From Aurantiacibacter zhengii (GTDB lineage: Bacteria > Pseudomonadota > Alphaproteobacteria > Sphingomonadales > Sphingomonadaceae), in NCBI RefSeq assembly GCF_003584125.1, contig NZ_QXFL01000008.1, positions 62,001 to 126,000 of the forward strand: a stretch of DNA of 64,000 bases. Direction: 5' to 3'. Below are positions 1 through 59,314 of the stretch, piece after piece; position 1 is the stretch's first letter; the number at the start of each line of letters is the position of its first letter. The position numbers were made by a program, and so were the translations under genes. The notes under the pieces are model-generated. The model did not search any database. It worked only from the letters and a program-made list of their open reading frames with translations, and was not told where the DNA came from.

Positions 1-80
1 TGCCTCCGCAGGTGCGTCCTCGCTAGATGCGCTCCGCTTCGCTGCGCGCCCGCTGCGGGCGGGCGTTCGCCCTTGCGGCC
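1..80 (+). repeat. Copy S of a dispersed structured repeat, cut by the window edge
   Basis: This stretch resembles two further stretches at 58461-58552 and, inverted, 58611-58694. Shared blocks are CCTCCGC, CGTCCTCGCTAGATGCGC, CTGCGGGCG and CTTGCGG. It contains the hairpin GGGCG-TT-CGCCC at 61-72. The other copies form the same hairpin with different but still complementary bases. It lies directly behind the stop codon of the thiE-like gene on the minus strand. The first hairpin of the element is only partly visible because the window starts inside it. Function unknown; a transcript end or REP-like role is inference. Confidence 0.7.
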
Positions 81-91
81 CTGTGGGCCGT

Positions 92-51951: not shown

Positions 51952-52086
51952 GCGGGCAAGTCAGCGCTTTGTGGGCGATTGTGTGCAATTTTCCTTGAAA
52001 CCAAACGCGACGATCATCATTATGAATATTGCGGACCGGGCCCCTCTGGCGCGCGCTCTCATTTGGCGCTCGTGATGTCGGACCGC

Positions 52087-52167
52087 ATCGGACAGCCGGT
52101 GCGTGTTTGACGGGGCCTCTTCCCCCTCCCCACAGACCCCGGCAAAAAACGATACCGGCCGTCCGAT
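52087..52167 (+). other. Strong hairpin element in front of ydcH, candidate structured leader RNA
   Basis: ATCGGACAGCCGGT (52087-52100) pairs with ACCGGCCGTCCGAT (52154-52167) over 14 positions with one mismatch. Inside, CGGGG (52111-52115) pairs with CCCCG (52137-52141). The element lies between two genes, 32 bases before the ydcH ATG. It shares the words CCTCTTCCCC and CGTCCGATC with the hairpin at 52401-52485. It may be the leader of the ydcH-nhaA mRNA. Confidence 0.6.
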
Positions 52168-57797: not shown

Positions 57798-58418
57798 ATG
57801 GAACAGCTTTTTCTCTCCGCCTTCATCACCCTGTTCGTGGTGATCGATCCGCCCGGCTGCGCGCCGATCTATGCGGGCCTCACCAAGGGCGCGACCACCG
57901 CAGAGCGCCGGATCATGGCGATCCGCGCCTCGATCATCGCTTTCGTGATCCTGCTGGTGTTCGCGCTGTTCGGGCAGGACCTGCTGTCCGCGCTGCATAT
58001 CGAGCTGGACAGTTTCCGCATCGCGGGCGGGCTGATGCTGTTCTGGATCGCGTGGGAAATGGTGTTCGAGAAACGCACCCAGCGCCGCGAGGAGCGCGCC
58101 GAACGCGCCGCGCGCGAACATGTGGAGGATGTCTCCGTCTTCCCCATGGCCATGCCCATGCTGGCAGGCCCCGGCGCGATTGCCGCGATCATGCTGCTGA
58201 TGAACGAGGCCGTTGGGCTGGAACAGTCGCTGGTCGTGATGGGCGCGCTGGTATCGGTGCTGCTGATCACCATGATCGCGCTGATCGCGGCAGGCCCGCT
58301 GATCAAGCTGCTGGGAGAGCGCGTCGAGGCCGTCATCACCCGCCTGCTGGGTGTGCTGCTGGCGGCACTGGCGGCGCAGTACGTGATCGACGGGCTGCGG
58401 GGTAGCTTCGGGGTATAG
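57798..58418 (+). CDS. MarC family membrane protein
   Basis: The 206-residue protein has six helices of the MarC family: FITLFVVIDPPGCAPIYAGLTKG at the start, FRIAGGLMLFWIAWEMVF in the middle and MPMLAGPGAIAAIMLLM. The family was once linked to multiple antibiotic resistance, but a transport role is unproven. It has a charged loop RRERA-like between helices 3 and 4. Its stop lies just ahead of the inverted repeat pair. Confidence 0.92.
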   Translation: MEQLFLSAFITLFVVIDPPGCAPIYAGLTKGATTAERRIMAIRASIIAFVILLVFALFGQDLLSALHIELDSFRIAGGLMLFWIAWEMVFEKRTQRREERAERAAREHVEDVSVFPMAMPMLAGPGAIAAIMLLMNEAVGLEQSLVVMGALVSVLLITMIALIAAGPLIKLLGERVEAVITRLLGVLLAALAAQYVIDGLRGSFGV

Positions 58419-58460
58419 TTCCCTCGGCGGTGGACCAAGGGGCCGCGGGATTGTTTGTTT

Positions 58461-58552
58461 TGCGAAAGCGCCTCCGCGCTTTCGTCCTCGGTGCTGTTCG
58501 CTCCGCTTCGCTGCGCGGCACCTGCGGGCGGCCGTTCGGCCTTGCGGTCCGC
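58461..58552 (+). repeat. Copy A of the dispersed structured repeat
   Basis: This copy carries the first hairpin GAAAGCGC-CTCC-GCGCTTTC (58464-58483) and the second hairpin GGCCG-TT-CGGCC (58530-58541). Copy S at the window start and inverted copy B keep the same shapes with other base pairs. It faces copy B across 58 bp. Together they fill the space between the convergent marC and Lon-domain genes. Confidence 0.8.
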
Positions 58553-58610
58553 TAGTCGTGGACCGAGCCAGTCCTGTCCCTCTCGTCCAGCGCACGATAC
58601 GGTCGCGCCA

Positions 58611-58694
58611 GCGACCGCAAGCGCGAATGCGCGCCCGCAGCGGGCGCAGCTTGCTGCGCATCTAGCGAGGACGAAGCCGCGGAGGCGGCTTCGA
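58611..58694 (-). repeat. Copy B of the dispersed structured repeat, inverted
   Basis: On the minus strand it starts with CGAAGCCGC-CTCC-GCGGCTTCG and continues with GTCCTCGCTAGATGCGC and a hairpin around ATT (GCGC-ATT-CGCGC). CGTCCTCGCTAGATGCGC is identical to copy S. The pairing bases of the first hairpin differ from copy A at two positions on each side but still match. It is placed right at the stop of the Lon-domain gene. Confidence 0.8.
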
Positions 58695-58702
58695 AAAACA
58701 AA

Positions 58703-59314
58703 TTACTGAAGAGTCACATGCTCGTCGTCCGGGTCGCCCCGGCCGAAGAACTCCATCAGTTGCACCAGCAGGTCGCACCGCTCGCGAAGGTTGGGCGCTT
58801 CCAGCAGCGCCTGCTTGGCGGCGGCGTCGAACGGGGCGATCTGACTGACTCCGTTGATCAGGGAGACATCGTCCAGCCGGGCGACCGAATCCCAGTCGAT
58901 GGCATAGCCCTGGCTGTCGGCAAACTTGCGCGCTTCGTGCTCGAAGCTGGCACGCTCGCCCAGCGAGAGGTATTCCTCGGTCGGCTCCTCGATCATTTCG
59001 GCTTCGACCTGGCGGAACGGCGTCGTCACTTCCAGTTCGCGCAGCACGCGGAAACGGGTGAGGCCCGTCAGCACGATATTGTACCGTCCGTCCTCGCTGG
59101 TCTCGACATCCTCGATCTTGCCCACGCAGCCGACGTCGTACAGCGGCGCGCTTTCCATGGAATCCTGCGGCTGGATCATGCCGATTCGCCGGTCTCGCGC
59201 CAGCGCGTCGCCCACCATGGCGCGGTATCGCGGCTCGAAGATGTGCAGCGGCAGCTGCAGGCCGGGAAACAGGATCGCGCCGGTCAGCGGGAAGATGGAG
59301 AGCTTGCCCTTCAT
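58703..59314 (-). CDS. Lon-protease substrate-binding (LON) domain protein
   Basis: The 203-residue protein is the isolated LON/PUA-like domain: IFPLTGAILFPGLQLPLHIFEPRYRAMVGDALARDRRIGM is the family's conserved start, followed by YNIVLTGLTRFRVLREL and ending in a helical DAAAKQALLEAPNLRERCDLLVQ. No AAA or protease part is present. Such single-domain proteins are common in alphaproteobacteria; function unknown, perhaps substrate binding. ATG 59314 overlaps the previous gene's stop by 4 bp. Confidence 0.92.
   Translation of the reverse strand: MKGKLSIFPLTGAILFPGLQLPLHIFEPRYRAMVGDALARDRRIGMIQPQDSMESAPLYDVGCVGKIEDVETSEDGRYNIVLTGLTRFRVLRELEVTTPFRQVEAEMIEEPTEEYLSLGERASFEHEARKFADSQGYAIDWDSVARLDDVSLINGVSQIAPFDAAAKQALLEAPNLRERCDLLVQLMEFFGRGDPDDEHVTLQ

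Follow-up and report, generated by a model that had tools for sequence, protein, structure and literature searches.

What keeps the arms of a hairpin matched while the bases of both change: selection on a folded RNA, or events acting on the DNA itself? The question is raised by three repeat copies in the window analysed here (the whole stretch of 64 kb, bases 62001-126000 of contig C28, in a genome of 3.80 Mb and 29 contigs). An earlier note had described them as three copies of an element of roughly 85 bp lying at gene 3' ends and had assigned them to an uncharacterised REP-like family; from hairpins that stay paired despite changes on both sides it had reasoned that selection acts on structure. 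Strong covariation is routinely taken as evidence of RNA structure, but the stem interiors of this repeat do not pass a simple test for wobble pairs, and much of its covariation signal looks DNA-made. We favour, with a probability of about 0.56, a REP/BIME-like mosaic DNA element that is reshuffled at the DNA level and has been locally exapted, in a terminator-like manner, behind rpmH.

Results

The three copies were read directly where the earlier note had placed them and were scored with a covariance model (E values of 1.7e-23 for copy B, 8.8e-22 for copy A and 9.2e-17 for the cut copy S); as S, A and B are all among the eight copies from which the model was built, independent evidence comes from further copies. 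Copy S (type a, 1..90, + strand) is truncated by the window edge: its true start lies 14 nt before window base 1 (G000:C28:61986), leaving an H1 remnant at 1-16 with the loop at 4-7, followed on direct reading of the + strand by hairpins H3 (48-60), H4 (61-72) and H5 (76-90), with the model match extending to 104. Copy S directly follows, in antisense orientation, the end of a thiamine monophosphate synthase-like gene (PF02581, 92..628, - strand), whose stop codon lies 1 nt past base 90, where the copy ends.

Copies A and B are the halves of one heterotypic composite (58454..58702), in which copy A (type b half-element, 58454..58565, + strand; H1 58463-58484, H5 58545-58565) and copy B (type a half-element, 58600..58702, - strand; H1 58672-58693) are joined tail to tail by a 34-nt spacer (58566..58599), the commonest length in the family, the spacer sequence not being conserved. 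The composite lies between two convergent genes, a MarC-family gene (PF01914, 57798..58418, + strand) whose stop codon at 58418 is 35 nt ahead of copy A, and a LON substrate-binding-domain gene (PF02190, 58703..59359, - strand) whose stop codon at 58703 adjoins copy B (0 nt). Location at gene 3' ends holds for A and B, and for S with the reservation that it follows the gene end in antisense. The H4 sequences were found as claimed (GGGC-GTTC-GCCC in S, GGCC-GTTC-GGCC in A and GCGC-ATTC-GCGC in B); of the blocks said to be common to all three copies, the exact word GTCCTCGCTAGATG is confined to S and B, A carrying a second type, GTCCTCGGTGCTGTTC. Elsewhere in the window, at 52028-52090 (+ strand), lies a terC RNA (Rfam RF03067; 61.5 bits, gathering score 39.9); 35 of the 40 same-genus genomes have a match to this family, and many have at least two.

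Alignment of the copies in this genome defines a half-element of about 100-125 nt, composed of a T-rich start that typically resembles TTTGTTTT, the H1 hairpin (a 9-bp stem with loop CTCC), GTCCTCG, a variable middle, H3, H4, CTTGCG and H5. This length was observed in 257 of 304 distinct model-matched copies, so that the figure of 85 bp, which had missed H1 and H5, was too small. In type a GTCCTCG is followed by CTAGATGCGC and in type b by GTGCTGTTC; type II has a start resembling CCTCAAGCGCCGG and carries GGCTTTCCTCGC in place of GTCCTCG. At least seven of the nine H1 pairs are Watson-Crick in 292 of the 304 copies, and the loop reads CTCC at 99 of 172 anchored places. Folding of five copies as single-stranded DNA (S without H5) gave z-scores of -2.7 to -4.1 relative to shuffles. 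One copy in this genome (L012 1501-1623; G000:C22:223373-223495) has an extra palindrome, CCCCGGATCAAGTCCGGGG, inside its variable middle, which looks like a nested REP.

The element is dispersed far beyond the window. This genome contains 21 model matches at E up to 1, of which 19 are at E<0.001, and at E up to 0.01 the model matched 37 of 61 genomes, comprising all 37 of the same genus (this one included) and none of the 24 from other families of the same order. Within the GTDB family, mostly aquatic bacteria, 47 of the 149 genomes searched, from 31 of the 91 genera, have matches at E up to 1e-4. Because at most 62 candidates per genome were scored in the 61-genome search and at most 25 in the family search, copy numbers are lower bounds. 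Types other than a are under-counted, because seven of the eight model copies are of type a and one of type b, and because some copies were gathered, among the matches listed, by a pattern that fixed part of the H1 loop plus GTCCTCGCTAG. Of the 102 loci in the set L059-L160, 98 were taken in, L061, L074, L107 and L135 being left out. Three copies (L059 3998-4104, L122 2633-2737 and L156 3099-3200) are on contigs that carry the names Gammaproteobacteria MAG Ww125 and Nostoc sp. CHAB 5836, and probably represent contaminating Erythrobacteraceae sequence in those assemblies. Carriage by plasmids or phages was rejected, since the A-B region had no match in 72,556 plasmid and 50,697 phage records at the sensitivity used.

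Where copies are neighbours, the tail-to-tail architecture of A and B is the rule. Of the neighbour pairs of distinct model-matched copies at most 400 nt apart, 85 of 89 are tail to tail, and 34 of these 85 have a spacer of 34 or 35 nt (range -70 to 134). By motif scan, 74 of 79 distinct composites are heterotypic (56 a-b, 15 a-II and 3 b-II); the five homotypic ones (4 b-b, 1 a-a) compare with 31.8 expected and a minimum of 17 in 10,000 shuffles. Solitary copies, with no partner motif within 170 nt, are nonetheless numerous: 84 among the 181 of type a and 18 among the 93 of type b. A common H1 arm in both halves of one composite was also looked for and dismissed, being present in 3 of 79 with 2.4 expected by chance. 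Avoidance of long perfect palindromes is a likely reason for the pairing of different halves, by analogy with REP heterodimers, for which Di Nocera and colleagues proposed the same (PMC3733652).

Gene context was obtained with our own codon-usage gene caller and was usable for 265 copies: 104 lie between convergent genes, 74 are sense and 58 antisense to both neighbours, 23 lie between divergent genes, 4 are within an ORF and 2 have one side unknown. Counts of orientation and stop-codon distance bear out a habit of following genes closely, as 128 of the 179 copies with an upstream sense gene start no more than 12 nt past its stop codon, 45 exactly at the stop, and the stop codons of these 128 are TGA in 60, TAG in 53 and TAA in 15. 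Where the upstream neighbour runs in the opposite direction (82 copies), 8 overlap it or lie at most 12 nt away. A similar preference is known for convergent REPs, most of which are separated by under 20 bp from the gene 3' end on either side (PMC3733652). Of the 35 copies at rpmH loci (L178-L207, L018), 18 have TTTT directly after H5, vs 6 of 267 elsewhere, a pattern in the sequence which suggests that H5 may be used as an intrinsic terminator behind rpmH; a general intrinsic terminator was rejected, the T run after H5 occurring mainly at rpmH loci.

The covariation noticed in three copies stayed strong when more were aligned: among 145 distinct copies, 94.8% of cells formed pairs vs 71.8% in shuffles and 33-42% when slid one to three columns, and 23 of 26 pairs had changes on both sides. 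This alignment was fitted to the model; H1, however, lies between fixed blocks, and a model-free anchored reading gave 7.06 of 9 H1 pairs vs 4.68 with the arms re-dealt. All nine pairs were formed at 103 of the 172 anchored places; the remaining 69 probably include many false hits.

In an RNA under selection, G.U is expected to be tolerated far more than A.C. In 292 copies, G.T:A.C was 22:27 for the inner eight H1 pairs, 10:14 for H4 and 43:38 for the inner six H5 pairs, or 75:79 in sum; for stop-adjacent sense copies, 126 of 128 of which passed the H1 filter, it was 37:34 over the same pairs. Over all 26 pairs, G.T did exceed A.C (185:129, p 0.002; 88:55 in stop-adjacent copies), the excess being located in H3 (57:37), the pairing of which is poorly kept, in the outer H1 pair (28:7) and in the two H5 end pairs (25:6). 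As this excess is present in stop-adjacent copies too, there may be some RNA-level constraint. Among RNA controls from the same genomes, 18 tRNAs gave 19:0, and show no non-standard pair; because ARAGORN may not draw such pairs, terC RNA was added, which gave 74:4 (29 distinct copies, Rfam structure), or 17:4 once two fixed positions holding 57 of the 74 G.T cells were removed. The all-pairs ratio of the repeat differed from those of terC (p 6.5e-11) and tRNA (p 1e-4), these values being rough, since cells are non-independent; copies sharing descent were counted separately throughout. We conclude that pairing within the stems is probably kept mainly by processes acting on DNA; at helix ends, RNA may contribute to a minor degree. 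Pairing does survive changes on both sides, as the earlier note had observed; its step from there to selection on structure is not borne out, given that the inner stems have no preference for G.U over A.C and that H1 often changes several pairs at once.

One could nonetheless envision a 3'-UTR element that works as structured RNA, with a role in processing, stability or termination, to which the sense orientation behind stop codons, the strong covariation, the all-pairs G.T excess (mostly helix ends and H3) and the T run at rpmH loci would all be congenial. We consider this highly improbable: inner H1, H4 and inner H5 show no surplus of G.T relative to A.C, also when the count is limited to stop-adjacent sense copies; terC RNA and tRNA both have a far higher overall ratio; and in many cases a copy is the antisense member of its pair. 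Rfam families were rejected for want of a credible match, as nothing reached the gathering score over S, A or B, and a search of the A-B region relaxed to E 10 gave two miRNA models and nothing else, both scoring far under their gathering cut-offs.

The H1 stem is by far the fastest-changing part of the element and often alters by several pairs at once, with 115 distinct arms in 283 copies; in alignments, both arms are altered and the loop between them is unaltered. Of 105 non-orthologous pairs with bodies at least 90% identical (a 25% sample), 8 share the inner arm and 84 differ at 2-5 of 7 positions. For the 31 orthologous pairs whose bodies share at least 90% identity, the arm is the same in 14, differs at one position in 1 and at two to five in 16, so that the mean H1 difference is 1.74, vs 0.45 predicted from body divergence; for bodies of 85-90% (44 pairs) it is 2.80 vs 0.94, and for bodies of 80-85% (66 pairs) 2.26 vs 1.30. 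Many of these orthologous pairs come from common sites; with one pair per site and bodies at least 85% identical, 20 of 44 sites qualify, and the inner H1 differences number 0 at 9 sites, 1 at 2, and 2, 3 and 4 at 3 sites each. H1 differences between G000 and G012 are overdispersed (p 0.004, nine values collected by hand). These multi-pair changes point to DNA-level exchange or arm copying. In seven orthologous pairs with changed H1, the closest body among all copies is that of the ortholog in four; in the other three a non-orthologous copy is at least as close, and replacement of the whole half is possible there. Arms are shared by 112 of 1422 pairs within genomes vs 907 of 18587 between them (202 copies, 18 genomes; none of 500 label shuffles was as high), a modest hint of within-genome exchange.

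A tentative interpretation is that H1 might behave as a hairpin cassette, its arms being replaced jointly, with loop and surroundings intact, by inter-copy exchange or hairpin-specific DNA repair. If this were true, apparent compensatory evolution in a palindrome family would be DNA-level stem shuffling. Alternatively, the repeat could be a selfish or neutral palindrome whose stems are perfected by template switching at replication, its structure being unconstrained. The equality of G.T and A.C inside stems is what such a process would leave, and hairpin creation and upkeep by template switching are reported in PMC8794818; however, H1 changes of three to five pairs with few imperfect intermediates fit whole-hairpin exchange better, and H1 positions retain base-pair preferences (outer pairs C-G and G-C, the next mostly A-T or C-G), which makes this alternative quite doubtful. 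With its many orthologous hairpins, the family could serve as a test bed for palindrome upkeep, be it by template switching, inter-copy exchange or selection.

At orthologous sites the elements come and go. Behind the LON-domain gene, sampled in 38 of 40 genomes, a model match is present at 22 of 38 loci; the composite there reads by eye a-b, b-a, II-b, II-a or a-II, differing by species, and in some genomes only a few bases separate the two stop codons. At one such locus (L271, genome G005) a remnant of about 30 bases resembles both outer ends only, as would be left of a composite that had lost its interior. The rpmH, NDUS4 and nadC loci represent 30 of 39, 30 of 38 and 30 of 41 matches above the family cut-off, respectively. 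Within the rpmH loci (about 3 kb) a model match is present in 26 of 30, in most cases abutting the stop codon. Ahead of the NDUS4 gene (28 loci inspected, one wrongly placed), one element is common to G000 and G012, G001 has another type, a few genomes have other repeats and many have nothing (e.g., G013, G003 and G018). Upstream of nadC (28 loci inspected; L347-L375), several unrelated repeat families occupy one place, close behind the upstream stop codon, and differ by species. The differences in presence and type at orthologous sites indicate that elements are gained, lost and replaced, the changes being unpolarised. No target duplication was seen by eye at the LON, rpmH, nadC and NDUS4 loci inspected, a set that includes no close strain pair.

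Discussion

The regular placement of the elements invites the view that they are DNA sites at gene ends selected by the host, for example gyrase or nucleoid-protein sites that absorb supercoiling between convergent genes, or transcription barriers. The share of convergent contexts, the heterotypic pairing, the preferred spacer length and the frequent occupation of the LON site are in keeping with this, and the matches at most rpmH loci together with exact abutment on stop codons would fit host function too; PMC3733652 discusses how gyrase acts on E. coli REPs located at the 3' ends of ORFs. A host site would not be expected to be almost absent from some same-genus genomes (one match in G016, two in G035), nor to have element-free orthologous sites so commonly, nor to differ in type among species at a single site, and we therefore regard this explanation as unlikely.

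Under the preferred reading of a mosaic element reshuffled as DNA, the palindromes would fold as DNA when single-stranded or supercoiled, and copies would spread and swap segments through processes acting on folded or near-identical DNA, such that hairpin arms stay matched. Different halves might be paired because a perfect palindrome of 250 bp would be unstable. Insertions would survive at the least harmful places, directly behind stop codons, and some sites could later have been co-opted, the terminator-like hairpin behind rpmH being a candidate.

How does this element relate to known repeats? The label REP-like fits its dispersal and its preference for gene 3' ends, but the element is not a simple REP, with its length of about 100-125 nt, no conserved GTAG and a genome without a Y1 match. 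The REPs of E. coli BIMEs are units of 29-37 nt with GTAG in front (PMC8266576), and the halves described here fall outside that definition, being mostly 100-125 nt long, with several hairpins and no conserved GTAG before H1. They do resemble BIMEs in joining different types in inverse orientation with a linker, as in the y-z1 and y-z2 mosaics of E. coli (PMC8266576), although BIMEs consist of REP units and these halves do not qualify as such. Association with a RAYT was rejected, as this genome has no match to a Y1 (RAYT) transposase; one is present in 3 of 40 same-genus genomes. REPINs, which go with RAYT transposases, are likewise inverted repeat pairs that act as units; the halves here are much longer, and this genome has no Y1 transposase match. 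The RIME of rhizobia are intergenic mosaic elements with palindromes in alphaproteobacteria, and the present repeat, an intergenic palindromic mosaic in an alphaproteobacterium, is likened to them by description. RIME elements (Osteras 1995) are named in PMC2573895.

CGTC REPs occur mostly in alphaproteobacteria and lack an association with transposase genes (PMC3733652, Di Nocera 2013). Both CGTC and GTAG REPs are 20-40 bp long with an unpaired tag at one end, and form inverted dimers, often preferring heterodimers, near ORF 3' ends (PMC3733652). The element described here shares with them its palindromes, its inverted and often heterotypic pairs and its place at ORF 3' ends, and with some REP families spacers of similar length but different sequence. 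The stem and loop of CGTC REPs (8-9 bp and 4-5 nt) are matched by H1 alone, with 9 bp and the loop CTCC. The CGTC tag appears only where the H1 3' arm runs into TC, so that its CG is paired, unlike the unpaired tag of REPs, and the outer pairs are mostly C-G and G-C, those of CGTC REPs being A-T at the first and second positions (PMC3733652). Membership of H1 among CGTC REPs was accordingly rejected on the paired tag, the differing outer pairs and the half-element length of about 100-125 nt. GT pairs are frequent in GTAG REP stems (PMC3733652), unlike the stems of this element, inside which G.T is no commoner than A.C.

The term uncharacterised was apt, since the literature searched holds no description of this repeat in Erythrobacter or relatives; Erythrobacter cryptus is listed in a table of REP counts in PMC12306157, and smaller palindromic repeats that behave very similarly are known from PMC3733652. 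What is new is the build, namely long multi-hairpin halves, the pairing of different halves and a fast-changing H1, and the kind is already known: these are BIME-like repeats that follow a rule of different halves, in genomes mostly without a RAYT.
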